Source of the DNA: a virus
IMG/VR virus record: IMGVR_UViG_3300020452_000225
Span: 1-43,282 of that record
Direction: 5' to 3' (one strand)
DNA length: 43,282 bases
In this document: positions 21,547-33,993 of the stretch, piece after piece
Layout: the number at the start of each line of letters is the position of its first letter
Numbering within the stretch: position 1 is the first letter of the stretch
Notes under the pieces: generated by a model
Told to the model about the DNA's origin: nothing
The model's input: only the letters and a program-made list of their open reading frames with translations
Database searches by the model: none
Program-made: the position numbers and the translations under genes

Positions 21547-21893
21547 TTGAACCAATCGGTGGGGATGTTTGGGAAGATGCACCACTTGAACCCATGCTTG
21601 TCGCACCAGTCGCCGTAGTTGGTCTTTGATTTACTGCTAAGGGTGTTATTTCTTTGGAATACAAATCGGATATCAAGCTCAGGATGTGCAGCCTTAACAG
21701 CTAAATGCTTGCTGCGATCCCTTGGCTTAAAGAATCCTTTGGCTTCGATGATGACGCCATTAGGTATAAAGAAGTCTGGGGTGTATTTGCTCTTTGTGAC
21801 GTAGTCAAATTTTTCTATTTCGTATAGGTAAGGGACTGCGTGTTTATCGAGAAACTTCCCCAGCCTTTCTTCGAGGCCGGAGCGGTAATTCAT
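21543..21893 (-). CDS. Endonuclease I, Holliday junction resolvase (gp3-like)
   Basis: This 116-residue protein carries the T7 endonuclease I signature: NYRSGLEERLGKFLDKHAVP with the catalytic Glu, KYTPDFFIPNGVIIEAKGFF with the P-D-(x)-E-x-K catalytic set, and KSKTNYGDWCDKHGFKW near the end. It is shorter than T7 gp3 (149) because the flanks are trimmed. It resolves branched DNA and degrades host DNA. It lies 2 bp after the SSB gene. Confidence 0.93.
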   Translation of the reverse strand: MNYRSGLEERLGKFLDKHAVPYLYEIEKFDYVTKSKYTPDFFIPNGVIIEAKGFFKPRDRSKHLAVKAAHPELDIRFVFQRNNTLSSKSKTNYGDWCDKHGFKWCIFPNIPTDWFK

Positions 21894-21895
21894 AT

Positions 21896-22468
21896 TTAGA
21901 AGTCGTAGCTGTCCTCAGTGGCAACAGCAGCAGGACGGACAGCAGGGCTGTCGGCCTTAAAGCCTTCAACGCTTCCAAACATCGCTGCCACATCGGCAAC
22001 CGACATGTCACCAGAATCAACTGCTCCGTTACCGGAGACCAGCTCGACAATTTGTACGCCAATCACCCGCATGGAGGTTCCGACATTCGGACCCATGCAG
22101 TAAGGCTTTTGGTCGACAATGATATTGACCTTGGTTCCCTTGCGGACACCCATAAGGACGGCCTTTTCGATTGGGTCGCCTGAGGTGTCAACAAAGACGG
22201 GTTCGGGCTTGGCCTTGCGGCTGCCATCCCCTTCGCCATAGGTGTATTTGCAGGTTCCAGCGTCATCCCAAGGGGTCATAGCCACTTGAACTCGGCCAGT
22301 TGCTTTGCTCTTGGCCCAGGTAAGCAGCTCTTCCCGATCTGTTTCGATCTGGTTGAGTGTGTCAGGTGGAACCGTATAAGCAAAGGTTCGGTTATTGAAT
22401 TTGCCACTGTCTTCTCCGACAGAAATAAAGCCGGTCAGTTCGGTGGCGAATTTGTAGCGGTTAGCCAT
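21896..22468 (-). CDS. Single-stranded DNA-binding protein (gp2.5-like)
   Basis: This 190-residue protein sits where T7 gp2.5 does, before endonuclease I and primase-helicase. It ends in an acidic tail with a final aromatic residue (EDSYDF), the element that binds polymerase and helicase in the T7 family. The body has OB-fold-like strands such as KGTKVNIIVDQKPYCMG and SMRVIGVQIVELVSG. The start is ATG, 6 bp after the one-strand motif ATCTCTCATC (22475-22484), without a Shine-Dalgarno site. Confidence 0.85.
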   Translation of the reverse strand: MANRYKFATELTGFISVGEDSGKFNNRTFAYTVPPDTLNQIETDREELLTWAKSKATGRVQVAMTPWDDAGTCKYTYGEGDGSRKAKPEPVFVDTSGDPIEKAVLMGVRKGTKVNIIVDQKPYCMGPNVGTSMRVIGVQIVELVSGNGAVDSGDMSVADVAAMFGSVEGFKADSPAVRPAAVATEDSYDF

Positions 22469-22474
22469 TGGTGT

Positions 22475-22484
22475 GATGAGAGAT
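22475..22484 (-). repeat. One-strand 10-mer ATCTCTCATC ahead of SSB
   Basis: An exact copy in the 23-bp leader between the basic mini-gene and SSB, six bases from the ATG and preceded by TCCACCT, a partial leader repeat. Confidence 0.6.
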
Positions 22485-22491
22485 AGGTGGA

Positions 22492-22617
22492 TTACTTGCC
22501 TTGGCCACGCGATTTCTTTCGTGTGCCTTTGGGCTTCGAATGGACGCCTTGTCCTTGTCTTGTTTTCTTTGGCTTCGGTACGACGTATGAGCCGCCTGCG
22601 AGTGACTTACTCCTCAC
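22492..22617 (-). CDS. Small Lys/Arg-rich protein
   Basis: This 41-residue basic protein (GTG start at 22617) contains SYVVPKPKKTRQGQGVHSKP and ends RKKSRGQGK. The K-K-T-R-Q-G-x-G-x-H-S-K pattern recurs in small basic proteins of marine cyanophages. The GTG overlaps the upstream stop (GTGA), showing translational coupling. It might coat DNA or bind RNA and resembles a ribosomal-protein tail. The function is unknown. Confidence 0.65.
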   Translation of the reverse strand: MRSKSLAGGSYVVPKPKKTRQGQGVHSKPKGTRKKSRGQGK

Positions 22618-22787
22618 AGGTCAAATTCCAAAGAACCCGCCAAAAAGCGGGCATAAATATCTGGATCCATCTCGTCGAACTCCTTGCGGGTCATCCCGTA
22701 AAGAGCGATCTCAGCGTTTTCAATTAGCCACTTTTCTTGCTGTGTGGCCATCGGGGAAGAGTCGAGTTCGTAGTAGTCGAGGAGCAT
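22614..22787 (-). CDS. Small acidic hypothetical protein
   Basis: This 57-residue acidic protein starts MLLDYYELDSSPMATQQEKW and ends ARFLAGSLEFDL. It is the first gene after the attP/terminator region, and its stop overlaps the GTG start of the basic protein. The acidic-basic pair may work together. No family is recognised. Confidence 0.6.
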   Translation of the reverse strand: MLLDYYELDSSPMATQQEKWLIENAEIALYGMTRKEFDEMDPDIYARFLAGSLEFDL

Positions 22788-22845
22788 TAGATGCTAGGGA
22801 TAGAAGGTTCGCCAAGTGGGATCGTTCGAAAAGCCAGTGAGGCAC

Positions 22846-22872
22846 AAAAAAAGAGACCCCCTGAGGAGTCTC
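22846..22872 (-). terminator. Rho-independent terminator after the integrase/attP region
   Basis: On the minus strand GAGACTCC-TCAG-GGGGTCTC is followed by TTTTTTT. The 8-bp stem is complete in minus-strand RNA through a U-G pair, whereas in plus-strand RNA the same position is an A-C mismatch. The signal therefore belongs to minus-strand transcripts. It would stop transcripts from the regulator/integrase unit before the SSB block. Confidence 0.85.
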
Positions 22873-22903
22873 AATCCCACATGCGATCAAATCATGCGGT
22901 GCC

Positions 22904-22942
22904 TTTTAAGTCTGGTGCGTCTACCGATTCCGCCATGCCCCC
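22904..22942 (-). other. attP: attP-like site: 5' half of a tRNA-Leu(UAA) gene
   Basis: On the minus strand this reads as the first 39 bases of a tRNA-Leu: acceptor strand GGGGGCA, TG, D-arm GCGGAATCGGTAGACGC, A, anticodon arm CCAGA and loop CTTAAAA (anticodon TAA). The 3' side of the anticodon stem, variable arm, T-arm and 3' acceptor are absent, so it is not a working tRNA. It lies about 85 bp downstream of the integrase gene. P-SSP7 is described as having a 42-bp match to a host tRNA-Leu next to its integrase, and this is the same arrangement. Crossover would rebuild the host tRNA. Confidence 0.8.
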
Positions 22943-23025
22943 CAAGGGATCTCAGCGATCCAAAACCACAGAAATTGTGGCTACTAAGGGATTTTAGGGC
23001 GGTTTTCGGACAACGCTAGACACCG

Positions 23026-23889
23026 TTAGAGAGCCAATACAGCAGATCTAGCGGCTTGGTCTGTCGCTTTGCAGTACTTGAGTGACATGTCGATGGTCTG
23101 GTGTCCCAGAAGTTCCATCAACGTGCGGGGGTGAGTTACTTCACCCATCCAAGTACCGAAACTGTGGCGGAGGCAATGCCAGACGTAATCATCTGAGAAG
23201 CCAGCAATCTTGCGAACCTTTACGAATGCAGCATAAAGCTGATCTTTGTTGTTCCAGTCATCGCCAAATAAGCGATCACGGTCCAAACGGTTCAAAACAA
23301 TTTGCTCAATCTTGGGGTGCAATGTGATGTTACGAACCCCTTTCTTAAACTTCGTCAGACGCCCGGGCTTACCGCCTACCCACAATTGGGAGTGTGCCGA
23401 GTCGTAATCCGATGGGCGAAGTTTTAAAAGCTCCCCCTGCCGGAATCCGGTGTAAGCGGACACAAGCAGTGCATCGGCCAGGTTGTCTCCCCAGCGATCC
23501 CCGAAGAGATCTCGTGAGAGATGAGCTAAGCGATCAACGTCCTCTTTGGTGAACCACTCAATACGAGAGGCCCCTTCCTCAGCTCGTGGGAACTTTGGGA
23601 GGTCGAGCTTGTGTAAGCCCGCCAGCTTGGTGAAATTAAACACCGTGCTGCCTGAGCTCAAGATGCGGTTGATGGTGGAACCACTCCGCTTTTGCTCTTC
23701 CATGTCGGACTTGAACTCAAGCCACCAACCCGCGACAGTCAGTCTCTTAAGTGGAAGTGATCGACCAGCGTAGTTCGTGATGTGGTTGGCATTGATCGCG
23801 CTGGTTTTAGCGCTTGTCTGCCTCTTCCACTTCACTCTCCAGGTGTAATCCAGGGCTTCGCCCCAGGTTTTTACTGTCGATGTTGTCAA
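23026..23889 (-). CDS. int: Tyrosine recombinase/integrase
   Basis: This 287-residue enzyme has the full catalytic set: R150 in AYTGFRQGELLKLRP, H238 and R241 in WHCLRHSFG, H263 in LLGHQT and Y272 in SLKYCKA. The N-terminal half is a SAM-like core-binding domain. It should recombine the adjacent tRNA-Leu attP with the host chromosome. The start is TTG at 23889, since no ATG gives a complete N-terminal domain. The first 83 bp overlap the winged-helix regulator gene, so regulator and integrase are translated from one message. No excisionase was recognised. Confidence 0.93.
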   Translation of the reverse strand: MTTSTVKTWGEALDYTWRVKWKRQTSAKTSAINANHITNYAGRSLPLKRLTVAGWWLEFKSDMEEQKRSGSTINRILSSGSTVFNFTKLAGLHKLDLPKFPRAEEGASRIEWFTKEDVDRLAHLSRDLFGDRWGDNLADALLVSAYTGFRQGELLKLRPSDYDSAHSQLWVGGKPGRLTKFKKGVRNITLHPKIEQIVLNRLDRDRLFGDDWNNKDQLYAAFVKVRKIAGFSDDYVWHCLRHSFGTWMGEVTHPRTLMELLGHQTIDMSLKYCKATDQAARSAVLAL

Positions 23890-24283
23890 AGGCTTTAACC
23901 TCCTGTTTGGCTTTTGTTAGGTGCGAAAGGCTGACCTTTGCGTAATTGTCCAGAAGATTGGTGAAAATCTCACCCTTCGGGGTCAAATACAAGCGATAGC
24001 CCCTCCAGTTGTCTGGGTCTCTCTCTCGTCTCACAAGCTTTAGGCCAGAGCGATGCTGCAGCCGATGCTGTGGTCCGAGCCATGTCACACAACGCGAGAC
24101 ACTGCTTTTCGAGATATTGCAATCTGTCATTAAGTCCTCTTGCTTGCACCCGTTATGGGCAGCAATCCAAAAGAAGATCGACATCAGTTGAGCAGGAAAT
24201 TCCTTCTCACCTGTTGAGCGCAACAGCTCGATGCTCATGAAGGCACGCATTGCACCCTCACTCGTGACTTGGTTAAGTGGCAC
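23807..24283 (-). CDS. MarR-like winged helix-turn-helix regulator
   Basis: This 158-residue protein (GTG start at 24283) contains a wHTH: FPAQLMSIFFWIAAHNGCKQ, then EDLMTDCNISKSSVSRCVTW (helix-turn-helix) and LVRRERDPDNWRGYRLYLTP-KG, the typical MarR/PadR-type wing. It ends in a charged tail overlapping the integrase. Its place between RNA polymerase and integrase suggests control of the choice between lysis and integration or of early transcription. The near-copy GTCTCTCATC of the 10-mer motif abuts its GTG. Specific DNA target and ligand cannot be told from sequence. Confidence 0.75.
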   Translation of the reverse strand: MPLNQVTSEGAMRAFMSIELLRSTGEKEFPAQLMSIFFWIAAHNGCKQEDLMTDCNISKSSVSRCVTWLGPQHRLQHRSGLKLVRRERDPDNWRGYRLYLTPKGEIFTNLLDNYAKVSLSHLTKAKQEVKAFDNIDSKNLGRSPGLHLESEVEEADKR

Positions 24284-24295
24284 TGATGAGAGACA

Positions 24296-24442
24296 CTAGC
24301 AACTCCCGAACTCTAGCTCAATTGAAAAGCATTCCTCGAGGTAGTCAAGCAAATGCGCAAGGATGTAACCCCCGCCCATGTCGTTGTCTCGGTACCAATG
24401 CAACCTCTCGATAGAGGTCGCGTTTGCTGGGTAACTGTTCAT
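24296..24442 (-). CDS. Small hypothetical protein after RNA polymerase
   Basis: This 48-residue acidic protein (MNSYPANATSIERLHWYRDN, then GYILAHLLDYLEECFSIELE) lies 5 bp after the RNA polymerase stop and 12 bp before the regulator's GTG. The tight spacing supports it. The helix ILAHLLDYLEECFSIEL is amphipathic. No family is recognised. Confidence 0.6.
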   Translation of the reverse strand: MNSYPANATSIERLHWYRDNDMGGGYILAHLLDYLEECFSIELEFGSC

Positions 24443-24447
24443 AACAA

Positions 24448-26772
24448 TTAACAAAAGAAGTAGGTGGATTGATTAACGCTGTCGATGTCCAGCGTGTTCT
24501 TCATCAAATCGGGGTCCATCGCCACGCCAACCTCATCAGCCCATTGCTGCAGGACTGGGGCCTTATACATTTCCCCAAAATGCAGGCGGATGTCAGAAGC
24601 CATCTGATCCATGTCGCAAGGTCGGCCCAATACACAGTCATGAATGACGCTGTAAGGCTTATCCCAAAAGGCAAAAGTCAGGTGGATCAAGGCGGCATCA
24701 TTGCCGTGGACAAAATTCGGCGCAAGGGCTGAGCGGTGATGAGCCTTATCGGGTCCGAGGTATCCGTCGCCGACCATGCACTTAATCCGGGTTCCACCCA
24801 TCAGACGAGTCTTGACCTCAACCTGATTGCTGATTTTCAAGTCCTGTTGAACTACGAACCCGCTTGGTGTTGTCCACGTGATCTGCTCTTTGCCGCTGTT
24901 AAGGATTTCTGTAGCTGATTGTTTCAGCCACTTCATCACCTTGATCGGCCCAGGTAGGACCTCAGGGATGGCCTCGCGGAAGATCGCTCTCGTGATGGTT
25001 GTGAGGTCAGTACTCTCGAACTCCCGCTTGGCATCTTTAAGAGCCAGTCGAATGTAGTTACGAGCGCTTGACTCAGTGACACCATACGGGGTGCACATCA
25101 CGCTGCGCTTAGTTTCCTTGCGTGTTATCCAGCTATGAAACTTCTCTGGCATGTGAGCCTTTGAAGCTTCGGCCACTGTCCGGTAAATGTCGGCAGGCCG
25201 TTCCGTTGGGGTGACGTTGGTCCCTGCTGCAGTGTCCCCGCAGAGGGTGAGCGCTGACAGGTGCTGAAGCCCTGAACAGGTGGCATCTATCCCAATTGGG
25301 AGGCCAGAGGTGGTCTTGGTACCGTCGATGAAACAGGCCTTCCATTCGAGCGCTGCTGATAAGAAGCACCAGGGCTCCGCTGCATCGTGCCACCGCTTGT
25401 CGTGAATGGGATCGGAGGCAATCTCACTGATGAGAGATTGGTTGTCCTCTGTCCACTTAACACGATTAGCCATCGTTTCTTTGTCTAGCCCATATTTTGT
25501 GGCTAGATCTATGGCCATCCAATACCTATTAATAGGCCCTTCATCCGCAAAGTAGAAGAGCGACTTGTCAAAGTCGGATCCTTGCGGGTTAAAGGTTGAC
25601 TGGAAATACACCCGGCCCCTGTAATCGAACGATGCGGAAAGCCACATGGCTTTTTCATTGACATACTTTCGGGCCACAAACATGACCTCAGTTGTCCGCC
25701 AATTCTTTTGAGCTAGCTGAGCGTTGAAGTTCTCCGCATTTGTTCGAGCTCTTTTGTAAGTGTCAACTGATTCCTTGTCCGAGTCTTTTTCGAGTCTGTT
25801 CTCAGGAATAGGCATCGGTGCGTCACGCCTGAACTTCCCCACCGACGTGAAGGACTCATAGCAATGCTCCGCAACAGCAAAGATAAGAGGATTGATTTTG
25901 TAGGCCTGGTGTTGAAGAGAGTTCAACATGGCCAAGGGCAGGTCTCCTTGCTTAAGTGGGCCCAATGAACTGGACCGCCTAATTAATGGATTTGACTGTC
26001 TAATTGACTCGGTGAGGTAACCCCCCGAGCTGTCATTTGTCCAGTCAACAGGAGGGCAAAGCATCGGCCATTGACAAAAAGAAAATGATTCCGCTGCAGC
26101 CATGATTGTGTCCCGATAAGACAAGAACTCACGGGTGTAGGTCATGACCTTTTTGGTTTTCCTACCACGCCGCACAAGAATGTGCTCAAGCCACCCAGTC
26201 ACCTCTATCAAGTTGGTCAGTAGCCAGGTTCCGACCTTGTGGTTGATGGTGTTATTCCATATAGGCCACTCGATTTCTTGCCTGTTAAAGGCCCGAGTGA
26301 AAACGGTTGCTTTTTGACCCATACCAGTGGACCGGTGGAAAAAGAACTCGGTCTTTTTGTAGAGCTCCGGCTCTTGCTGCGCGTAGTAAGTCATACGCAG
26401 CTCAAGCTGGACATTCTTCCCGATTTTGGTGGTCAATTCCTGCAGTGAAGGCTCGGGCTCTTTGCCTAAAACATCGAGAACGGTCTTCATGGTGATCAAT
26501 GCCAAAGACTGTGAGTCAGCCTCTTTCAAATGGGCAAAGACCTCAACAGCATCAACAGCGGCTGATCCACGCCGAAGCGTGAACATCCTTTCCTCGATGC
26601 GTTTGGCTACAGGCTCAAGCAACCCCTTGATTGAATGCCGCCCATAGATGGTGTTTGATGCGTAGCTTCGGTCCGCAGCTTCGCGGGTTGAGCTGACGAG
26701 GCGTTGCCGTGCCTCTTCATGGGCTTGTGTCTCACGCTGCAGTTGGCGGCTGATGAGAGATAGGTTTTCCAA
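24448..26772 (-). CDS. Single-subunit RNA polymerase (T7 gp1-like)
   Basis: This 774-residue polymerase has the T7 family palm motifs: IGIDATCSGLQHLSA (catalytic Asp, T7 D537) and VIHDCVLGRP with D712 (T7 D812). SFDYRGRVYFQSTFNPQG is the R-x-R-x-Y motif before the palm, and the C terminus ends with aromatic residues, YFFC. It drives middle and late transcription from phage promoters. It is about 110 residues shorter than T7 RNAP. The start appears to be TTG at 26772: an in-frame stop lies shortly upstream, and the conserved N-terminal helix requires this region, while the first ATG is about 60 codons in. The start lies in a leader carrying both early-region repeat motifs. Confidence 0.95.
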   Translation of the reverse strand: MENLSLISRQLQRETQAHEEARQRLVSSTREAADRSYASNTIYGRHSIKGLLEPVAKRIEERMFTLRRGSAAVDAVEVFAHLKEADSQSLALITMKTVLDVLGKEPEPSLQELTTKIGKNVQLELRMTYYAQQEPELYKKTEFFFHRSTGMGQKATVFTRAFNRQEIEWPIWNNTINHKVGTWLLTNLIEVTGWLEHILVRRGRKTKKVMTYTREFLSYRDTIMAAAESFSFCQWPMLCPPVDWTNDSSGGYLTESIRQSNPLIRRSSSLGPLKQGDLPLAMLNSLQHQAYKINPLIFAVAEHCYESFTSVGKFRRDAPMPIPENRLEKDSDKESVDTYKRARTNAENFNAQLAQKNWRTTEVMFVARKYVNEKAMWLSASFDYRGRVYFQSTFNPQGSDFDKSLFYFADEGPINRYWMAIDLATKYGLDKETMANRVKWTEDNQSLISEIASDPIHDKRWHDAAEPWCFLSAALEWKACFIDGTKTTSGLPIGIDATCSGLQHLSALTLCGDTAAGTNVTPTERPADIYRTVAEASKAHMPEKFHSWITRKETKRSVMCTPYGVTESSARNYIRLALKDAKREFESTDLTTITRAIFREAIPEVLPGPIKVMKWLKQSATEILNSGKEQITWTTPSGFVVQQDLKISNQVEVKTRLMGGTRIKCMVGDGYLGPDKAHHRSALAPNFVHGNDAALIHLTFAFWDKPYSVIHDCVLGRPCDMDQMASDIRLHFGEMYKAPVLQQWADEVGVAMDPDLMKNTLDIDSVNQSTYFFC
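25947..25966 (-). promoter_or_regulatory. Phage promoter candidate inside the RNA polymerase gene
   Basis: ATTGGGCCCACTTAAGCAAG on the minus strand is identical over 20 bp to 30537-30556. The first seven bases match the reported Syn5 RNA polymerase promoter (ATTGGGCACCCGTAA). Sense transcription from here would cover the last half of the polymerase gene, the small 48-residue gene, the regulator and the integrase, ending at the terminator at 22846. Confidence 0.6.
26752..26761 (-). repeat. One-strand 10-mer ATCTCTCATC (RNA polymerase 5' end)
   Basis: One of ten exact copies of this word, all on the minus strand. This copy encodes part of the first residues of the polymerase (LSLIS). Other copies in early leaders are at 22475, 27345, 28301 and 28829, and a one-mismatch copy is at 24285. 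Confidence 0.6.
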
Positions 26773-26777
26773 TTTCA

Positions 26778-26793
26778 GTTGGTGAAGTGGGAA
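26778..26793 (-). repeat. Leader repeat ahead of RNA polymerase
   Basis: TTCCCACTTCACCAAC on the minus strand lies just before the TTG start. It belongs to the family of degenerate CCCAC-n3-CCAAC elements found ahead of many early genes and related to the core of the 20-mer promoter candidate. Confidence 0.6.
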
Positions 26794-26815
26794 GGATTAA
26801 TCAAGACTGCAGCTT

Positions 26816-26947
26816 TTAAGATCTTGCTTGGCCCCGTGTGTAATGCCTGTGAAGTCCAGGGGGGTTGCTCTCAGTGGAGGCCTGGGGCTCTATTTGAGGG
26901 ATGCACAGTGTGCTTAGTGCAAGTGTGGCAATCAGGAACTTAATCAT
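26816..26947 (-). CDS. Small protein with hydrophobic N terminus
   Basis: This 43-residue frame starts MIKFLIATLALSTLCIPQIE, a basic residue followed by a hydrophobic stretch and Cys15, then a hydrophilic tail rich in Pro, Ser, His and Arg. This resembles a short signal peptide or membrane anchor, although the residues before the Cys are not a good lipobox. It overlaps the preceding gene by 8 bp. It might act on the host envelope early in infection. It is weakly supported because it is so short. Confidence 0.45.
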   Translation of the reverse strand: MIKFLIATLALSTLCIPQIEPQASTESNPPGLHRHYTRGQARS

Positions 26948-27128
26948 TGATCAGAATGTCCTCTAGGTCGTTGAGTGAGATGCCTCGCCGTTGACATTCG
27001 GTGACTAGACCGTTCATCAGGGAGACAGTGGCGTCGTCGATGTAGTCCTCGTACATAACCGCAAGCTCACGGTCTGTGAGGTCTTGCATGGTTTCCGCTA
27101 GGTGGAACTGATACTGTTCCCGATTCAT
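26940..27128 (-). CDS. Small acidic early protein
   Basis: This 62-residue protein (MNREQYQFHLAETMQDLTDR start; SLMNGLVTECQRRGISLNDL near the end) is ATGA-coupled to the gene before it. The longer frame upstream of this ATG is Arg-rich and is the preceding gene read out of frame. It is all-helical and acidic, which is typical of early host-takeover proteins. No family is recognised. Confidence 0.65.
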   Translation of the reverse strand: MNREQYQFHLAETMQDLTDRELAVMYEDYIDDATVSLMNGLVTECQRRGISLNDLEDILIND

Positions 27129-27286
27129 TCCCATCTGCCTCGATCTTTTAGGACCTCGACGACGGCGTCGTACTGGGCGCAAATGTTGTCGAAATAGAAG
27201 TCATGTTCTGACGTTGCAAGGATGTCCTCGCCTAAATCGTTGATGCGCTCGACCAGTTGATGGTCGGTCATTTGTACTAGATACAT
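27125..27286 (-). CDS. Small acidic early protein
   Basis: This 53-residue protein starts MYLVQMTDHQLVERINDLGE and continues with DILATSEHDFYFDNICAQYD. A second ATG five codons in is an alternative start. It ends in an ATGA overlap with the next gene. A leader repeat (27306) and a 10-mer motif (27345) lie upstream. The function is unknown. Confidence 0.6.
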   Translation of the reverse strand: MYLVQMTDHQLVERINDLGEDILATSEHDFYFDNICAQYDAVVEVLKDRGRWE

Positions 27287-27305
27287 GAGAAAGGAGGTGG
27301 TTGAG

Positions 27306-27320
27306 GTTTGCTAGGTGGGT
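27306..27320 (-). repeat. Leader repeat in early region
   Basis: ACCCACCTAGCAAAC on the minus strand is a member of the CCCAC-n3-CCAAC family, 20 bp upstream of a small early gene. A second CCACC stretch lies between it and the ATG. Confidence 0.45.
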
Positions 27321-27344
27321 CTGAAAGGCCAGTTAAAGCCGACT

Positions 27345-27354
27345 GATGAGAGAT
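27345..27354 (-). repeat. One-strand 10-mer ATCTCTCATC
   Basis: An exact copy, 2 bp after the stop of the upstream 57-residue gene and in the leader of the next one. It is non-coding here, which argues that the word is not merely a codon preference. Confidence 0.6.
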
Positions 27355-27356
27355 GA

Positions 27357-27530
27357 TCACCACTCGAAGTCAGGCACAGGCATGATCCGAACGATGCGAA
27401 AGCCAGGCTGCAAAAGCTCGGCTGCGCCTTGCTGTGCTGTGAGCGTGTCTGTGGCGTAGGTACACCAACAGCGCTTATCACCCGATTCATCGAGGTAATA
27501 AACTTCATACGCTTGCAATTTAGATCTCAT
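27357..27530 (-). CDS. Small early protein, member of a two-gene family
   Basis: This 57-residue protein (MRSKLQAYEVYYLDESGDKR, then CWCTYATDTLTAQQGAAELL and QPGFRIVRIMPVPDFEW) shares the pattern Y-E-V-x-Y-L-x-x-x-G-x-K-x-x-W, Ala-rich helix, then P-G and a final strand with P, with the protein at 28426-28608. The two are probably diverged duplicates with a beta-alpha-beta layout. The gene starts 103 bp from the divergent plus-strand ribbon-helix-helix gene, so the intervening stretch may hold promoters and operators for both. Confidence 0.65.
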   Translation of the reverse strand: MRSKLQAYEVYYLDESGDKRCWCTYATDTLTAQQGAAELLQPGFRIVRIMPVPDFEW

Positions 27531-27633
27531 TAGAAGGGATCAATTTTGTATAGAATGAGGCCAAACACATGAATTGTGTGTCGTAAAGCACAGTTGTCAA
27601 AAAGGGATTGCGTACCTTCTTGTTTATGTGTTT

Positions 27634-27948
27634 GTGGACAATTTGAAACGAGTTATCATCCAGATGAAAGACTCTTGCCATGCCGTGCTTAAGCAGTACG
27701 CCGCACTTCATGGTTGGACAATGAGCGAAGCCATGTATGAGGCAGCTCGCTACCGCATTCATACCCATGCCAACGCTTGCCCAAAAGTCAAAGCACTGTT
27801 GGATATGCACGGAAAACCGTTGGATCCTCGAATCAATAAACCGTGCTACGGCCATGACTGCTACTCCTGCGGAATGTTTGAGGAGTGCAAAGCCGGAACA
27901 TATAAAGGAAAAGCTCCTCACTTAGACAACTCTTGGGGTGTTGTGTAG
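27634..27948 (+). CDS. Ribbon-helix-helix DNA-binding protein with Cys-rich tail (only plus-strand gene)
   Basis: This protein of about 104 residues starts at GTG 27634 (upstream TTG or GTG and the ATG at 27664 are alternatives). LKRVIIQMKDSCHAVLKQYA followed by ALHGWTMSEAMYEAARYRI fits the MetJ/Arc ribbon-helix-helix: a strand with alternating residues, helix A, a turn with Ser-Glu, helix B. The C-terminal part has four Cys spaced C-x4-C-x2-C-x5-C (PCYGHDCYSCGMFEEC), which could hold zinc or an iron-sulfur cluster. It is transcribed against all other genes, diverging from the 57-residue early gene. A repressor of early genes is the natural guess. Confidence 0.7.
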   Translation: MDNLKRVIIQMKDSCHAVLKQYAALHGWTMSEAMYEAARYRIHTHANACPKVKALLDMHGKPLDPRINKPCYGHDCYSCGMFEECKAGTYKGKAPHLDNSWGVV

Positions 27949-28097
27949 GTACTGGTCAGCATTCGGTACTCGATGCGAAGCATTTCACTCAGTGCCTTAA
28001 GACGAGATCTTTCTGCTTTTCCGGTTGTGCTGTTCAAGAGTTGATAGGTGTTGGCCAACTCAGACCAGATCATTTTTAACTCGTTGTGATGGGTCAT
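27918..28097 (-). CDS. Small early protein, tail-to-tail with the plus-strand gene
   Basis: This 59-residue protein (MTHHNELKMIWSELANTYQL, then RSRLKALSEMLRIEYRMLTS) is helical and basic. Its last 31 bp overlap the 3' end of the ribbon-helix-helix gene on the other strand. A leader repeat lies about 20 bp before the ATG (28119). No family is recognised. Confidence 0.6.
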   Translation of the reverse strand: MTHHNELKMIWSELANTYQLLNSTTGKAERSRLKALSEMLRIEYRMLTSTYTTPQELSK

Positions 28098-28118
28098 ACA
28101 GAAGCAAATTCAAAGCGA

Positions 28119-28135
28119 GTTGGTTGAGTGGGATT
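28119..28135 (-). repeat. Leader repeat ahead of the 59-residue gene
   Basis: AATCCCACTCAACCAAC on the minus strand is a clear member of the CCCAC-n3-CCAAC family. Confidence 0.6.
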
Positions 28136-28300
28136 GAATACCAATTTCAAGCGCCCTCCGGTATGGCCTGGGCGATCCCTCGACTTATCGGCTCTCGGGA
28201 GGACCATCGTCTGAAGCGCTGGGCGGCTTGTTTGATGGACTGAGTATCGCAAGTGGGATTCAGTAATCAATAGATCAAAAGATACAGAGAGCCCTTACAT

Positions 28301-28310
28301 GATGAGAGAT
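28301..28310 (-). repeat. One-strand 10-mer ATCTCTCATC
   Basis: An exact non-coding copy, followed directly by ATG TAA on the minus strand, that is, by a start codon and a stop. The gene that once followed may be lost, or the element does not need one. Confidence 0.6.
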
Positions 28311-28405
28311 AGGTTTACAAGCCCAGTCATACCAATGGAATATAAGGATCTTAATGAATACCTATTTTACTAAATCAATTTCTACATGGTTCGCAGTGAT
28401 ACATA

Positions 28406-28422
28406 GTTGCCTAGGTGGGATG
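28406..28422 (-). repeat. Leader repeat after the 28426 gene
   Basis: CATCCCACCTAGGCAAC on the minus strand, 3 bp after a gene stop and just before an ATG that opens a frame of only 7 codons. Confidence 0.5.
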
Positions 28423-28425
28423 TAT

Positions 28426-28608
28426 TTATTGATACCACGTAATGGTCTTAGGTTTGACATCCAACACCGTTGTTCCTGGTGCTGCCATCTCTAGCCATGA
28501 GCGTTCTGCGTTCATTTCATGCTTGCCTCTCCATAACACCCACTTTTTATTGCCCTGTGGCGTGAGGTAGTGGACCTCATACATGACAGTGCTGCGTTTA
28601 GTAGACAT
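28426..28608 (-). CDS. Small early protein, second member of the two-gene family
   Basis: This 60-residue protein starts MSTKRSTVMYEVHYLTPQGN and ends GTTVLDVKPKTITWYQ. It shares Y-E-V-x-Y-L-x-x-x-G-x-K-x-x-W, a central Ala/Glu helix and a P-G turn with the 57-residue protein at 27357. The ATG at 28608 stands immediately after the U-tract of a terminator hairpin. The ATG at 28584 (MYEV) would align better with the paralog. The function is unknown. Confidence 0.65.
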   Translation of the reverse strand: MSTKRSTVMYEVHYLTPQGNKKWVLWRGKHEMNAERSWLEMAAPGTTVLDVKPKTITWYQ

Positions 28609-28632
28609 AAAAAAAGAGGCCCTTAGGACCTC
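28609..28632 (-). terminator. Terminator or attenuator abutting a start codon
   Basis: On the minus strand GAGGTCC-TAA-GGGCCTC is followed by TTTTTTT and then directly by ATG. The stem needs a U-G pair that exists only in minus-strand RNA. A leader repeat lies 2 bp upstream (28635). This layout, repeat-hairpin-U-tract-ATG, suggests attenuation of the next gene or separation of two early units. Confidence 0.75.
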
Positions 28633-28634
28633 GT

Positions 28635-28650
28635 GTTGGTTATGTGGGAT
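28635..28650 (-). repeat. Leader repeat before the terminator
   Basis: ATCCCACATAACCAAC on the minus strand, one of the closest members to the consensus, between a gene stop and the terminator hairpin. Confidence 0.6.
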
Positions 28651-28654
28651 GGAA

Positions 28655-28828
28655 TCAGTAGCCCAGGTAGTGGAGGATCGTCTTGCCGTCATCCCATTCC
28701 TGAGGTGTGGCTAATCCGATGAACTCGTCTAGGTCTGAGCTGTGCTCTTCAAAGATCTGCTTGATGGCCCAGCTAGGTGCTTTGCCTTCAGCGTCACAGG
28801 TGGAGAGGAATGACTCTTCGTAGGACAT
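28655..28828 (-). CDS. Small acidic early protein
   Basis: This 57-residue acidic protein (MSYEESFLSTCDAEGKAPSW, then AIKQIFEEHSSDLDEFIGLA) has an ATG touching the end of the 10-mer ATCTCTCATC (28829-28838), with a leader repeat at 28843. It ends ahead of a terminator. It is helical, and its function is unknown. Confidence 0.65.
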   Translation of the reverse strand: MSYEESFLSTCDAEGKAPSWAIKQIFEEHSSDLDEFIGLATPQEWDDGKTILHYLGY

Positions 28829-28838
28829 GATGAGAGAT
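28829..28838 (-). repeat. One-strand 10-mer ATCTCTCATC abutting a start codon
   Basis: An exact copy ending directly at the ATG of the 57-residue acidic gene. Any ribosome signal must therefore include or lie upstream of it. There is no Shine-Dalgarno sequence. Confidence 0.6.
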
Positions 28839-28842
28839 GCTT

Positions 28843-28860
28843 GGTTGGCTATGTGGGAAT
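28843..28860 (-). repeat. Leader repeat ahead of the 57-residue acidic gene
   Basis: ATTCCCACATAGCCAACC on the minus strand, near consensus, 4 bp upstream of the 10-mer copy. Confidence 0.6.
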
Positions 28861-28880
28861 GATACAGGAAGAGGGGAGGA

Positions 28881-29069
28881 TTAGCAACCCTCGTTAGTGA
28901 AGCAATCGGTAGGTTCCCAGGAGACAACGCCCCAGGTGTGTTGTCCCTTCCAGATCCTGTTCATTGATGCGGCGTTCTCTTCGGCTGCCTCACGGGTTAC
29001 GAAGACCATACCCATCGATACACCGTTCTTGGTGACTGAGTGGAGCTGGCGCTGAGTGACGTAGGTCAT
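28881..29069 (-). CDS. Small early protein
   Basis: This 62-residue protein (MTYVTQRQLHSVTKNGVSMG, then MVFVTREAAEENAASMNRIW) has a strand-strand-helix look and ends with SWEPTDCFTNEGC. Its ATG follows the leader repeat CCCACTCCAACCG by 0-1 bp. The function is unknown. Confidence 0.65.
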   Translation of the reverse strand: MTYVTQRQLHSVTKNGVSMGMVFVTREAAEENAASMNRIWKGQHTWGVVSWEPTDCFTNEGC

Positions 29070-29070
29070 C

Positions 29071-29084
29071 GGTTGGAGTGGGTT
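29071..29084 (-). repeat. Leader repeat abutting a start codon
   Basis: AACCCACTCCAACC on the minus strand, a shortened family member (spacer reduced), separated from the ATG by one base. Confidence 0.5.
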
Positions 29085-29164
29085 GCTTGATGTCCTAAGT
29101 ATGCACCATCAGTTGGCCATGTGCAACCCATTTGATGGGAGGTCAACATGTCTTAACAATCTCT

Positions 29165-29395
29165 TCAGTCTTCTGTCCAGTTAATGCAGCTCATCTCCTT
29201 TCGAATCTCTGGGTCGATGATCCACTCGCTCTCGATTGCTTCGACCGCTAGGACCACATCGCATTGATCAGGGGTGAGGTCGCTCTCGTCTATGTCCTCG
29301 GGAATGGTGGTTAGTAGCTGCTCGATGTTGTTGTAGACCTCGACCATGCTGCGTTGCATGTTCTGCAGGTAGATGGCCTCTTTGTCTGGGTTCAT
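29165..29395 (-). CDS. Small acidic early protein, first gene after the CG-rich block
   Basis: This 76-residue strongly acidic protein (MNPDKEAIYLQNMQRSMVEV, then TTIPEDIDESDLTPDQCDVV) looks helical. It is the first gene of the continuous early block in transcription order, the position of T7 gene 0.3 and its neighbours, where anti-restriction or DNA-mimic proteins are common. Acidity and place allow that guess, but no family is recognised. Confidence 0.65.
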   Translation of the reverse strand: MNPDKEAIYLQNMQRSMVEVYNNIEQLLTTIPEDIDESDLTPDQCDVVLAVEAIESEWIIDPEIRKEMSCINWTED

Positions 29396-29703
29396 GGTTA
29401 ATAGATAAGCTAAGGTTATGAGTTAGGCTATTGACGTATAAGCTGAACTGATATCGCACAGATGAGTACAGAAATAAATAAACGCGAGCGTGCGCACCCG
29501 CGCCCAGGCCTGCGCCCGCGCGTTACCTGTTTGCAGGCGCTCAGGCCCGCATTAGAACTAACATCTATCGAGAACCCTTGCTATGACTGGGCTCTGGCGG
29601 AAGGACTACCCCCCACCCCCTCCAATTCTCAATAAGCGAGGGGGGTATCGGGGGGAAAATTGGCCGAACGTACTCGTATATGGGTACACAAATTTATGTC
29701 ATT
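29396..29703. other. Non-coding stretch with CG-rich block and C-tract hairpin
   Basis: No gene was found. At 29481-29524 lies a CG-rich block bounded by AACGCG and CGCGTT, with alternating purine-pyrimidine runs. At 29609-29655 CCCCCCACCCCC pairs with GGGGGT-ATC-GGGGGG to give a 12-bp stem with a 3-base bulge. In base composition the stretch is unlike everything around it. It lies between the terminase side and the first early genes, where the genome ends or an origin may be. Confidence 0.6.
29609..29655. repeat. C/G-tract inverted repeat
   Basis: A strong imperfect inverted repeat of homopolymer tracts (C6-A-C5 and G5-T-ATC-G6) with a 20-base loop. The minus strand G-runs could also form a quadruplex-like structure. 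It is a candidate for a packaging, termination or replication-pausing signal. Confidence 0.55.
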
Positions 29704-29874
29704 TTACTCTGAAGATTTGAAGAACTCATCAATCTCAGGATGAATCTCTAAACCTTGGAATGGATCATAATCTTCTCCTCGAATAGCAGCTCTAATTGAA
29801 GCTGTAAGCCAAGGATTCTTAGCGGCCAGCGCAGCCCTCAGGGCGGCCTGTAACCGAACATCTCTGTCAGACAT
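29704..29874 (-). CDS. Small hypothetical protein
   Basis: This 56-residue protein (MSDRDVRLQAALRAALAAKN, then IRGEDYDPFQGLEIHPEIDE) has an Ala-rich helix and an acidic end. Its ATG overlaps the stop of the preceding gene (TGATG). It ends just before the C/G-tract region. No family is recognised. Confidence 0.6.
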   Translation of the reverse strand: MSDRDVRLQAALRAALAAKNPWLTASIRAAIRGEDYDPFQGLEIHPEIDEFFKSSE

Positions 29875-30179
29875 CACACAATCATCTTAGTATTGGTTGT
29901 AGGGTCTTCTAGGGCTGCCTCAGAGGCAAAAGATGTATCTACTACCCCTTCTTTCACAGAAGAGGAATACATCTCATCCATCTCCAGACACCAAGCTTTA
30001 AGGGCTTTACCGGAGTCTGTAAACTTGGCCATACCTAGAGCACGCCAGCATTCCTTAGGGTCTATGTGACCTCTAGTGGAACCTTTGTAATGACTAACAA
30101 AGTAGTTAGGACCTTCTCTAACTCTGAAATAATCAAAGCTACAGCCAGGTCTATTACCTTCAAAAGGATATACTTTCAT
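29874..30179 (-). CDS. Hypothetical protein next to the terminus region
   Basis: This 101-residue protein (MKVYPFEGNRPGCSFDYFRV, then NYFVSHYKGSTRGHIDPKEC and WRALGMAKFTDSGKALKAWC) looks folded, with aromatic residues and four Cys. It is preceded by an AT-rich stretch with a TATAAT box, so a host RNA polymerase could express it at once after entry. It is coupled to the following 56-residue gene. No family is recognised. Confidence 0.65.
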   Translation of the reverse strand: MKVYPFEGNRPGCSFDYFRVREGPNYFVSHYKGSTRGHIDPKECWRALGMAKFTDSGKALKAWCLEMDEMYSSSVKEGVVDTSFASEAALEDPTTNTKMIV

Positions 30180-30211
30180 AATAGAAGAGGTTAACTATAT
30201 AATAACATAAT

Positions 30212-30217
30212 ATTATA
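30212..30217 (-). promoter_or_regulatory. Possible host-type -10 box (TATAAT)
   Basis: A perfect TATAAT on the minus strand inside an AT-rich stretch, 33 bp upstream of the 101-residue gene. No good -35 box is seen at 17 bp. Cyanobacterial sigma factors often depend mainly on the -10 element. It is tentative. Confidence 0.35.
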
Positions 30218-30536
30218 TATAAGAGTATATGTATATGGTATTGTGATAATGTGATTGATATCACTTCTACCAGCTCTGTGACATCCGATTCACCCCTGCG
30301 GGCTTCCTCGTACTGTCTACGAGAGACCGACTGGGGTGTTCACTTGTGTGTGTGTATATTTACAGTGATATATGTGTGTTTAAGAGGCCAGTCGTCAGCC
30401 CCAGGTATTACAACCTTCATATTCTTGATTTAGTTTTGGTTGTGTAGTTAGCAGAGAAAGGGAGGCTCTCGATGTAGTTTCATCAAAAGAGTGCTCCCGA
30501 TCTCACCGCATATCCACACAAGAGAGCACCACTTCT

Positions 30537-30556
30537 CTTGCTTAAGTGGGCCCAAT
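30537..30556 (-). promoter_or_regulatory. Phage promoter candidate below the terminase gene
   Basis: ATTGGGCCCACTTAAGCAAG on the minus strand is an exact second copy of the word inside the RNA polymerase gene. It begins 4 bp after the terminase stop and points toward the early genes, across the non-coding region. In T7 a phage promoter near the ends feeds replication and packaging, and this could be its counterpart. Confidence 0.65.
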
Positions 30557-30560
30557 AGAT

Positions 30561-32300
30561 CTACCAATCCCAAACTTTAGTGCTACCAGTGCTTTTAATA
30601 TTTTTAAAGGATAGACCTAAGACGAGAGCATCTGTAGCTAAGTGAGGGTGTTCTTCAAAGGCTTGCATCATTGCCTTCCACTCTTCATTCTTTCTTAGTG
30701 CTTGAGCTTTGTGAGCACTTTGAGCAAGGCTATCGATAAACCACTGGACTCCTTGGCTAAGGGCATCAATTCGGTCATCATGTTTGATAGCTCCCTTTTC
30801 TCTGCACATACGGGACATCTGATATCCGAGCATATACTCCAGTCGTTTCTCAGGAGGTGCATCAGGATTGGAACGATAGTCATATTCAAATACCTTAGGG
30901 TCAATGATTAATTTGTGTTGGTTCATCACCGGCTCTAGTGTTTCGATGATGCGTTCTTCTTTTCTTACAGTAGCTCTAATTTCTTCAGTAGAGAAGTTAG
31001 CACCCATTTGTATAATGTGTCTATTAAAGAGTTCACATATCATCCCGTCTCCGAAGTTACTTTCTACGAGAAGGCGGGAGGCTTGATATTTTTTACCCAT
31101 CCTAATGATGGCTGTAAGTGTGTCATCTGAATAGCCATCTTTAAAGGCAAGCATGTCTCGAACGAAGACATAACCATTAGCTTGACTAAGCACAACTGCA
31201 ACAGTTTCGTCAGCTCCCCTCCCGCTAGGGTCAACGCTCACGACCGTCTCCGAGTACTCACACATACCCTCATCGATATACATAGGGCCATAGAAGCGAT
31301 CTCCGGGTAGTCCTACGGGGTTCTGATCTTTGATCATGTATCTAGGATCAGCAGACCAGGCATAGCGCTCAGCGCATTCATTACCTAAGGGAGTAACTAT
31401 TAGGTCTTGGAACTTCAGAGGAAACTTTTCACTATCAGATAGAGATGTATCTAACATGAATTGGAGCATAAAGTTAGAACGCCCCATAGCGCTCTCCCTT
31501 TCCATCAGGTCCAGGTCACTAAATCTTGTATCTGTAGGTGCTCCGGGATCCTGTCCTTTCTCAATATCTTCGACCAACTGCGGTGCGAGTAGTCCTTCAT
31601 ACTTGCTGAGATCTTTCGGATATCTAGCTGGCCAGACAAATGGCCTGTAAGCACGTTCGGCCAACTTTCTGTAGATCGTAAACGTTGACTGCGGTGTCCC
31701 GAGAAAGAGTATTCGGCTATCATCTTTAGGTGTTAAAATAGATTCAGATTCGGTAACTAGCTGCAGCAACTTCTCGCGTTGCATGTCTGTTGCTGAGTTT
31801 GAGGGAACCTCGACGTCATCAAAGATCAGTAGGTCGGATCGGCTTCCGGTCATCTGACCTTGGATTCCAACGGACTTAACTGAAGGGGCTTGATGAGGTC
31901 TAGCGGGGCCTACATCAAAAGAGATACGGCTCCAACGTTGATCAGAGTCCTTAGGTCCTAGATAGCCAAGCCATTCGATATCTAGGATTAGCTTTTGACA
32001 GAAGATAGAGAAGTTATCAGCCCTTTCTTTAGAAGCCGAGATAACCATGATTTTCTTGTCAGGGTCAATAAACAAAACCCACAAAACAAACGCTGCAGTA
32101 ATCCAGGACTTTCCAACACCTCTAAAAGCTGAGATCTGTAGACGTTTTGGCCCATGTTGTAGATAGTCAGCAATACAAAGCTGTGCTCTAGTAGGTTTTG
32201 GTAGATCTAACTCACGCCATACCAATGTCAGAAAGACTTTAAAATCAGTCTTGATTCTTGTCTCTAGTTCTTGTAAATCCATAGGTGTATCCGATAGCAT
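30561..32300 (-). CDS. Terminase large subunit (gp19-like)
   Basis: This 579-residue packaging motor has the ATPase Walker A ISAFRGVGKSWITAAFVLW and Walker B SDLLIFDDVEVPS. The C-terminal RNase H-like nuclease has VVSVDPSGRGADETVAVV (first Asp), LVESNFGDGM and KHDDRIDALSQGVQWF (last Asp pair). It translocates DNA into the head and cuts concatemers, as T7 gp19. The N terminus overlaps the upstream 96-residue gene by 56 bp. Confidence 0.95.
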   Translation of the reverse strand: MLSDTPMDLQELETRIKTDFKVFLTLVWRELDLPKPTRAQLCIADYLQHGPKRLQISAFRGVGKSWITAAFVLWVLFIDPDKKIMVISASKERADNFSIFCQKLILDIEWLGYLGPKDSDQRWSRISFDVGPARPHQAPSVKSVGIQGQMTGSRSDLLIFDDVEVPSNSATDMQREKLLQLVTESESILTPKDDSRILFLGTPQSTFTIYRKLAERAYRPFVWPARYPKDLSKYEGLLAPQLVEDIEKGQDPGAPTDTRFSDLDLMERESAMGRSNFMLQFMLDTSLSDSEKFPLKFQDLIVTPLGNECAERYAWSADPRYMIKDQNPVGLPGDRFYGPMYIDEGMCEYSETVVSVDPSGRGADETVAVVLSQANGYVFVRDMLAFKDGYSDDTLTAIIRMGKKYQASRLLVESNFGDGMICELFNRHIIQMGANFSTEEIRATVRKEERIIETLEPVMNQHKLIIDPKVFEYDYRSNPDAPPEKRLEYMLGYQMSRMCREKGAIKHDDRIDALSQGVQWFIDSLAQSAHKAQALRKNEEWKAMMQAFEEHPHLATDALVLGLSFKNIKSTGSTKVWDW

Positions 32301-32535
32301 CTAACCCCTCAACTTCAGAAGGCTCTGAGTGATAGCTAGGAGGGTCTATAAGGGGGTCGTTAGGTATATGTGGTGCAATCCCTTCTTCGATTGCTGCAGA
32401 CGTCTTAGCGTCGATGTAACGGGTCTCTAGGCCATATAGCCAACCTTTCAAAAAGAAAGCAAGTGGCTTAGATAATTTTTTGTCTAGCCACTTAGCTATA
32501 TCCCGAAACTCATTGAGTCGGAATTTGATGATCAT
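32245..32535 (-). CDS. Hypothetical protein overlapping the terminase start
   Basis: This 96-residue protein starts MIIKFRLNEFRDIAKWLDKK and has LAFFLKGWLYGLETRYIDAK, then an acidic Pro-rich tail. The last 56 bp overlap the terminase start in another frame. The first base of its ATG overlaps the stop of the preceding Lys-rich gene. It may be a packaging accessory. It is not recognised as a small terminase. Confidence 0.65.
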   Translation of the reverse strand: MIIKFRLNEFRDIAKWLDKKLSKPLAFFLKGWLYGLETRYIDAKTSAAIEEGIAPHIPNDPLIDPPSYHSEPSEVEGLDAIGYTYGFTRTRDKNQD

Positions 32536-32666
32536 TACTTTTTCTTTTTCTTCTTTGGAAACCCAGCTTTCATATTGGCGAAAGACTTAGCTGAGACCGT
32601 AGATTTTTTTTTAGAGCGGGAGGTGCCAGCCTTTTTCCGCTTATTGATATTGGCGTAGAGGCTCAT
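32535..32666 (-). CDS. Lys-rich mini-protein (SLYANI type)
   Basis: This 43-residue protein starts MSLYANINKRKKAGTSRSKK and ends in seven consecutive Lys. The S-L-Y-A-N-I opening followed by a basic run is common in small cyanophage proteins of unknown role. It is coupled on both sides (ATGA upstream, TAATG downstream). Its charge suggests contact with DNA or RNA. Confidence 0.65.
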   Translation of the reverse strand: MSLYANINKRKKAGTSRSKKKSTVSAKSFANMKAGFPKKKKKK

Positions 32667-32746
32667 TTCTTCTTACCACCTTTCTTTTTTTTCTTTGCAG
32701 GTGGGCGGCCCATCTTGCTTCCGTAAGTCCCCTTTCCTTGTGGCAT
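32663..32746 (-). CDS. Lys-rich mini-protein (KGTYGSK-GRPP type)
   Basis: This 27-residue protein (MPQGKGTYGSKMGRPPAKKK and a further basic tail) has a K-G-T-Y-G-S-K-x-G-R-P-P pattern familiar from small cyanophage proteins; G-R-P is AT-hook-like. It is ATGA-coupled to the next mini-gene. It shares K-G-T-Y-G with the basic protein at 33522-33776. Confidence 0.55.
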   Translation of the reverse strand: MPQGKGTYGSKMGRPPAKKKKKGGKKK

Positions 32747-32755
32747 GGTTTTAAA

Positions 32756-32983
32756 TTAGCTTTGTGTAGAAGTGGCGTAGCCGATTTGATTAGCACCAAC
32801 CGCATGAGCACGCTTTTGGTTAGCAGAAAGAAGATCCAGGGCGTCAGATGCGGTAGCAGAAGCACCCAGAGCTCCGAGAGCAGTGCGGCATGTGGCGTCT
32901 AGAACATAAGCACCACCTTTCTTCTTTTCAGTAGAGAAGACGGTGGATGGCCGCACAGTTGCGGTAGATGTAGTTGCTGTCAT
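32756..32983 (-). CDS. Small Ala/Ser/Thr-rich hypothetical protein
   Basis: This 75-residue protein (MTATTSTATVRPSTVFSTEK, then RTALGALGASATASDALDLL) has a flexible N terminus and a helical remainder. It is ATGA-coupled to the membrane/coiled-coil gene before it. It could be a minor virion component. No family is recognised. Confidence 0.6.
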   Translation of the reverse strand: MTATTSTATVRPSTVFSTEKKKGGAYVLDATCRTALGALGASATASDALDLLSANQKRAHAVGANQIGYATSTQS

Positions 32984-33210
32984 TTTTTATTGAATAGGTT
33001 GTCAAGTTTGGATTCAATGCGTACAAAATGTTCCTCAAACCTTTTCATGGTTTCAGATACTTCTATACGGGTTATGTAGCGTTCGGCGACTTTTAGCTCG
33101 ATGCCATCCATTCGCTTGTCATGTTCGAGGATGCGGTTATTAGTGCGAGTAAATAAAACACTAATACCAGTTATTGCTGCAACTGTAACAGGAACAATTG
33201 CTTCTAACAT
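32980..33210 (-). CDS. Membrane-anchored coiled-coil protein
   Basis: This 76-residue protein begins with a hydrophobic segment (MLEAIVPVTVAAITGISVLF) followed by a charged heptad-like helix to the end (MKRFEEHFVRIESKLDNLFN). One membrane helix with a soluble coiled coil fits an inner-membrane spanin-like or holin-accessory protein, in the lysis/packaging cluster where T7 has gp17.5 and gp18.5. No partner spanin was recognised. Confidence 0.6.
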   Translation of the reverse strand: MLEAIVPVTVAAITGISVLFTRTNNRILEHDKRMDGIELKVAERYITRIEVSETMKRFEEHFVRIESKLDNLFNKK

Positions 33211-33211
33211 A

Positions 33212-33484
33212 TTAGACTGCGTTTAAAATAGTTTGCATGAAGACGTCTACCTGCATGGATCCTTTTGCTTGGTTGCAAGGACGACAAGCTGTTACGCAAT
33301 TGTCGGCATGGTCATAACCCCCCTTACATTTAGGGAGCACATGGTCAATCGTTAAATTATCTGTAGAGCCACAGTAAACACATTTATGTCCATCCCGAGC
33401 CTTGATGCTTTCTCTCCACATCCGTTTAGCGTCACCGCTACGGAAACAGAGAAGTTCAGACATGAGGCTTCGGGGCGTATCCAT
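33212..33484 (-). CDS. HNH endonuclease
   Basis: This 90-residue protein has the complete HNH core: [20 protein letters not shown], then [20 protein letters not shown]. Two C-x-x-C pairs bind zinc, and D-H-x-x-P-x-x-x-G-G-x-x-x-x-x-N carries the metal site. It may be a packaging-associated nuclease or a small homing endonuclease. An ATG 7 codons in (MSELLCF) is an alternative start. It lies between the small packaging-cluster genes. Confidence 0.88.
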
Positions 33485-33521
33485 TGGCTCATTAAATTTA
33501 AGGGTGAAGTGGTCTGGTTAA

Positions 33522-33776
33522 TTACTTCTTGGCTTTGTACTTTGACTTACCGTTACGGCCATTACGGCGGCGATTCTTAGAGGCTTTTTCCTTTACGGTT
33601 TTGCCATTGGATGTGTGGCTGTTATCCATACCATCACCATTGCCATAAGTACCCTTTTGGCGGTTGATCTTATTTAGCTGAGCCCGGCGCTTTTTAGCCT
33701 TCTGAGTAGCGTTGTATTTTCTCCGAGCACGTCTAGTTGCTTCAGAAATCTTGGGGTTCTTTTTTGCTTCAGCCAT
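33522..33776 (-). CDS. Basic protein with YGNGDG motif
   Basis: This 84-residue protein is very Arg/Lys-rich (EATRRARRKYNATQKAKKRR, then LNKINRQKGTYGNGDGMDNS-H and NRRRNGRNGKSKYKAKK). The R-x-x-x-T-Y-G-N-G-D-G-x-D-x-S-H pattern occurs in small cyanophage proteins, some labelled HNH-like; its single His and Asn make catalysis uncertain. Its ATG overlaps the upstream stop by 8 bp. It is probably nucleic-acid binding. Confidence 0.65.
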   Translation of the reverse strand: MAEAKKNPKISEATRRARRKYNATQKAKKRRAQLNKINRQKGTYGNGDGMDNSHTSNGKTVKEKASKNRRRNGRNGKSKYKAKK

Positions 33777-33993
33777 TGACATCATCGAACGTAAGTTCGG
33801 GAATCAAACCAGCAAGACCAGCAAGGGGAGACCCCGACACAGCAACGCCAGTAATATCATTCTTTGCTAGCCAATCAGTAGCAGCTCTTAGGTCTGCAGT
33901 TGTAGCTTCGCCGGATTTAATCCTGGCAATTAATTCATGAGTTAATAGGGAGTGAAGCTCATCAAAGAGTTCTTCCCCAGCTCGCTTAGCCAT
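33769..33993 (-). CDS. Possible small terminase (gp18-like)
   Basis: This 74-residue protein (MAKRAGEELFDELHSLLTHE, then RIKSGEATTADLRAATDWLA-KN) has the helix-G-E-A-T-x-A-D-L-x-x-A-x-x-x-L-x-x-N-x-I pattern of small terminase proteins of podoviruses, followed by an acidic tail (ELTFDDVNG). It lies in the endolysin-terminase interval, as T7 gp18 does, and is one base from the holin-like gene. T7 gp18 has 89 residues. The assignment is plausible but not certain. Confidence 0.6.
   Translation of the reverse strand: MAKRAGEELFDELHSLLTHELIARIKSGEATTADLRAATDWLAKNDITGVAVSGSPLAGLAGLIPELTFDDVNG

Follow-up and report, generated by a model that had tools for sequence, protein, structure and literature searches.

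The plus-strand gene and its early-block setting

The DNA analysed here, a stretch of 43,282 bases that we call the window, comes from a T7-like cyanophage, with an RNA polymerase 64% identical to that of Synechococcus phage Syn5 and early genes in the same order as those of Syn5 and S-TIP28. Among these early genes lies a plus-strand gene for a ribbon-helix-helix (RHH) protein (Table 1). Its reading frame is open up to the stop at 27948, where the original prediction had ended the gene, and it is the only one of the six frames with a positive coding score; no homologues were found for any other plus-strand ORF of the window in the subset tested. Judged from its sequence, the gene is real. Because the TTG at 27643 lines up with the starts of relatives, 15 of 37 of which are TTG at that position (17 are ATG and 5 GTG), it is most likely the best start, and the stretch from 27574 to 27642 is non-coding by the coding score. 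In the resulting 101-aa product the RHH-like start, the TMSE turn and the C-x4-C-x2-C-x5-C pattern all read as first described.

The gene had been thought to diverge from the early block; it does stand head-to-head with 27357-27530, but it lies inside the block, not outside, and meets 27918-28097 tail-to-tail with a 31-bp overlap. Homologues of the two flanking genes overlap by 4 bp in S-TIP28 and are adjacent in three contigs (L010, L022 and L024), with at most 55 bp between matches; in the window 387 bp separate the two, and this interval contains the RHH gene in reverse orientation. This gene order indicates that the RHH gene is inserted antisense at an early-gene junction of the window phage. 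The closest relative of the protein (72%), in contig L099, is encoded antisense to RNA polymerase and terminase at a different early junction, adjoining the homologue of 29165-29395, and a single lineage thus shows the gene inserted at two sites, each time in antisense. The family tree gave no firm placement of the window-L099 pair.

Table 1. Coordinates of genes and sequence features at the RHH locus and near the integrase of the window
Feature	Position	Strand	Remarks
Tyrosine integrase	23026..23889	-	
tRNA-Leu-like sequence beside integrase, probable attP	22904..22951	.	
MarR-like transcriptional regulator (phrog_9665)	23807..24283	-	
T7-like RNA polymerase	24448..26772	-	
Early gene, homologue of STIP28_10	27357..27530	-	S-TIP28 homologue overlaps next gene by 4 bp
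Divergent gap between RHH gene and early gene 27357-27530	27531..27642	.	Candidate control region (putative role)
Left arm of 12-nt inverted repeat (11/12)	27562..27573	+	Candidate operator; 3/300 shuffles
Promoter-like TTGACA-16-CACAAT facing early gene 27357-27530	27573..27600	-	1 found, 1.0 expected
Right arm of 12-nt inverted repeat (11/12)	27623..27634	+	Candidate operator; 3/300 shuffles
RHH protein with four-cysteine tail	27643..27948	+	TTG start, 101 aa; longest possible frame begins at TTG 27574
RHH domain, residues 1-45 (strand 1-8, helices 10-22, 27-45)	27643..27777	+	AlphaFold2 model, Foldseek
C46, fifth cysteine, nearly invariant	27778..27780	+	33/35 family rows; outside search pattern
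Cysteine tail, residues 66-85: K-P-C68-x4-C73-x2-C76-x5-C82-x2-G	27838..27897	+	Proposed metal or iron-sulfur site (putative), from alignment
Early gene, homologue of STIP28_9	27918..28097	-	Last codons overlap RHH gene 3' end

An ACACA-TGAAT-TGTGT repeat in the divergent gap had been put forward as an operator; it is present at 27565-27579, one base from its reported place, and we rejected it as an operator because equally good palindromes arose in 89 of 100 shuffles. A longer inverted repeat, missed earlier, pairs at 11 of 12 positions and was equalled in 3 of 300 shuffles, which is weak evidence for an operator. The promoter-like site facing the early gene is no commoner than chance. Upstream alignments gave no operator common to the whole family, the conserved blocks being clade-specific; an ATGCA-N5-TGCAT repeat occurs upstream in part of one clade only. 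No phage-polymerase promoter faces the RHH gene, as both exact copies of ATTGGGCCCACTTAA in the window (25952-25966 and 30542-30556, minus strand; n = 2) point the opposite way. These copies are likely promoters of the phage's own polymerase, and ATTGGGCCCACTTAA is three mismatches from the Syn5 polymerase promoter. No Rfam family was found within 22500-31000 of the window.

A further contig, L002 (PACT01000006.1), is 99.98% identical to window positions 21574-33945 and is filed under a Crocinitomicaceae MAG, probably through a binning error. Over these 12,372 bases the two differ at 27580 and 27596 only, 16 bases apart. Both positions fall within the divergent gap that precedes the RHH gene, and one of the substitutions turns a minus-strand TTGACA into TTGAAA. 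Such a placement would fit a control region, with two bases to judge from.

An RHH fold joined to a cysteine tail

The AlphaFold2 model of the protein (pLDDT 87.4, pTM 0.75, from an alignment of 35 family rows) has an extended strand at residues 1-8 and helices at 10-22, 27-45 and 47-55, followed by the cysteine tail, and its N-terminal strand and first two helices have the CopG/Arc geometry of the RHH (MetJ/Arc) class. With Foldseek, CopG superposed on the model at 0.8-0.9 Å over 32-35 residues and Arc at 0.6-0.7 Å over 32-36 residues, and nearly all PDB matches were RHH proteins; their E-values were not significant because the RHH domain is short, as is usual for a domain of ~45 residues. 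The predicted strand-helix-helix is common to the window protein and the CopG and Arc repressors; the window protein has roughly double their length and carries a third helix and a cysteine tail, both absent from them. Profile searches gave no curated family above its cut-off. The best Pfam profile was DUF6290 (E 0.019, 15.6 bits against a cut-off of 27), and ParD and FitA-like RHH profiles also matched weakly, below cut-off and in register with the RHH start. Taken with the fold search, weak in-register matches over the RHH half extend to DUF6290 and to the RHH antitoxins ParD, FitA-like, RelB and AtaR, but all are under curated cut-offs, and the window protein has a cysteine tail and no toxin partner. 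Together, the model, the fold search and the in-register profile matches bear out the RHH assignment made from the sequence pattern, and the predicted fold is strongly supported. Among viral models, the top Foldseek match was ORF104b of Acidianus filamentous virus 2, an archaeal virus protein named a putative zinc finger; it aligned over 40 residues at 2.0 Å with a weak score (E 0.74), a structural match only, with no homology shown.

In the tail, C68, C73, C76 and C82 (codons at 27844, 27859, 27868 and 27886) are present in 34 of 34 tailed alignment rows, although many rows were chosen by these very cysteines and their invariance is partly preselected. Conservation outside the search pattern extends to C46 (33 of 35 rows), to L16, K17 and D61 (35 rows each) and to H40 (32 rows). 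Metal binding by the tail is likely on this pattern, and invariant cysteines under strong purifying selection lend the originally proposed metal site indirect support. The iron-sulfur motifs of WhiB and Cas4/AddB consist of C-x2-C-x5-C and one more distant cysteine; the tail has this arrangement in common with them, as a lead only, but it has the extra C68, and no sequence match to them was found.

With six members as tblastn queries, no convincing match came up in 50,697 phage records. Relatives in viral contigs were first reached by walking outward, and a degenerate DNA pattern covering the cysteine tail only was then run on 2.9 million viral contigs, of which 38 matched. All complete frames among these carried an RHH half in front (the frames of L123 and L137 lack a start), so that in complete frames found by the tail alone the two halves always occur together. 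Among relatives found through the RHH half, L113 alone is without the tail, its frame (5001-5192) ending just short of it. We rejected the tail match in MT836899 (L005), where the ORF is another one, of 186 aa, that lacks an RHH start, the matches in Salmonella and Stenotrophomonas, which look like chance, and the antisense gene of AP013539 (L158, 3885-4163), which has no RHH match.

Substitution rates between the window and L099 (pS 0.91, pN 0.19) and between L091 and L095 (pS 0.36, pN 0.02) show synonymous change far in excess of amino-acid change and mark selection on the family as strongly purifying. The original prediction had staked itself on the fold, on homologues and on frames free of stops in relatives, and none of these checks went against it. 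The combination of RHH and four-cysteine tail is a previously undescribed family, and the tail marks these unnamed cysteine-rich RHH proteins across several kinds of cyanophage. Members come as a tandem pair of overlapping paralogues in psbA-bearing phages, and in other phages a member adjoins DNA polymerase or portal-like genes; no integrase match was found in the psbA-bearing and polymerase/portal-type carriers tested. The tandem copies were seen in L091 (5645-6318), L096 (5654-6318) and L117 (2121-3049), which are psbA-bearing or related phages; in L091 and L096 the overlap between the two genes is ATGA, and an extra C-x-C-x2-C closes most of the upstream copies. In L029, a second, plain RHH gene at 5810-6130 (RHH_5, E 2e-5) lies directly upstream of the cysteine-tailed one.

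The integration cassette of uncultured relatives and S-TIP37

The position of the gene opposite the early genes, on which the original prediction dwelt, is not typical, as most T7-like relatives instead carry it in sense in an integration cassette. In 20 tailed T7-like contigs, including two pairs with identical proteins (L134 with L130 and L144 with L114), the RHH gene lies ~150-255 bp before the match to a MarR-like regulator, which is followed by the integrase and then, where the contig extends that far, by the T7-like RNA polymerase. A phrog_9569-type gene usually stands just before the RHH gene. The tail-less half in L113 occupies the same slot directly upstream of regulator and integrase, and so does gp09 of S-TIP37 (L152 3335-3505), annotated as hypothetical, a 56-aa RHH protein that matches the family profile at E 0.0033; gp09 has the slot and the RHH in common with the family but is without the cysteine tail. 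In the window, by contrast, 3.4 kb separate the RHH gene from the regulator and the two are on opposite strands, and in L099 too it is outside the slot; both phages retain an integrase away from the RHH gene. Two further contigs, L010 and L014, have the integrase and no member of the family. Because the L145 RNA polymerase shares 64-70% identity with its counterparts in Synechococcus phages, S-TIP37 included, and because L142 carries psbA ~5 kb from its RHH gene, the cassette contigs point to cyanobacterial hosts.

Several cassette contigs carry a tRNA-Leu-like att sequence, and a 39-base core is identical in the window and L141; beside the window's integrase, the 57 bases at 22900-22956, probably attP, are identical in L010. 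A conserved short frame precedes the MarR-like match in L116, L121, L131, L148 (in the gap after the RHH gene) and L157 (2500-2900); it resembles ISFGNFYLGLDKESYTD in S-CBP1, and either the regulator extends into it or it is a small gene missing from the annotation.

MarR-integrase operons have been proposed to govern lysis-lysogeny in integrase-bearing T7-like phages (PMC10134795). The module of LUZ100 and S-TIP37 has the regulator directly followed by the integrase near the RNA polymerase gene, as in the cassette, but the cassette contigs have a cysteine-tailed RHH protein before the pair, and we found no mention of an RHH protein in the LUZ100 paper (PMC10134795).

Possible roles of the RHH protein

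T7-like cyanophages have been described as integrating without stable lysogeny, with no repressor recognised (PMC8776855), and a second DNA-binding protein placed ahead of regulator and integrase readily suggests itself as a missing control element. From gene order we infer a regulatory role. We further infer that the protein would act as a DNA-binding homodimer in which C68, C73, C76 and C82, possibly with C46, coordinate zinc or an iron-sulfur cluster by which DNA binding is shaped or switched, and that it would most likely repress its own promoter and a nearby phage promoter. In the window phage and in L099, where the gene would have moved in reverse into the early block, its product could affect the MarR-integrase genes in trans and the interrupted early operon in cis. 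A metal-dependent RHH repressor tied to integration control, and moved to the early block in the window phage, has in our judgement an even chance of being right; in its favour, the slot is the same in the 20 tailed contigs, L113 and S-TIP37, and the window and L099 have both kept an integrase. Against it stand the weak fold and profile E-values, the distance and strand of the window gene relative to the regulator, the integrase-bearing relatives without the family, and the failure to detect an integrase in the psbA-bearing and polymerase-bearing phages that have a member. The bolder proposal, that the family is a metal- or redox-sensing repressor forming with the MarR-like regulator a switch for integration or lysogeny in uncultured T7-like cyanophages, seems to us unlikely; if true, some of these phages would be truly temperate, and the switch would be linked to the redox state of their photosynthetic host.

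The gene could instead encode a regulator aimed at host promoters during infection, its place beside the integrase reflecting gene traffic at a variable site. In cyanophage P-SSP7, a MarR-type protein reportedly activates expression of host RNase E (PMC9692554), the RHH gene does move between sites and occurs in phages without a detected integrase, and the RHH part of S-TIP37 gp09 weakly matches, below cut-off, the cyanobacterial blue-light stress-response family slr0373; traffic alone, however, hardly explains so constant a slot, and we consider this account unlikely. That the integrase and a tRNA-Leu-like att lie close by in the cassette contigs would also suit a directionality factor or architectural protein on att-flanking DNA that steers the integrase and not transcription. 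Such an accessory is distinctly unlikely, since integration needed int and attP in published work (PMC8776855), some phages have the integrase but not the gene, and paralogues turn up in phages where no integrase was detected.

The nearest profiles and folds, weak as they are, belong to antitoxins (ParD, FitA-like, RelB and AtaR) and raise the idea of a solitary antitoxin of a toxin-antitoxin pair, which we hold to be very improbable: in the window there is no plus-strand partner beside the RHH gene, the next matched gene in the cassette contigs is the MarR-like regulator, no toxin gene in the same orientation adjoins the RHH gene in either, and PADLOC gave no match of note. We likewise give very little probability to an antisense transcript, in place of the protein, interfering with the early operon of the window phage; antisense insertion at two different early junctions and the tail-to-tail overlap with 27918-28097 would agree with it, but selection on the protein, as seen between the window and L099, is strongly purifying, and elsewhere the gene lies in sense. 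For the integration-control reading, the conserved RHH gene before the MarR-integrase pair, with S-TIP37 gp09, gives the open question of integration control a named gene. S-TIP37, which carries its tail-less RHH gene in this same slot, is an engineered model phage whose integration has been studied experimentally.
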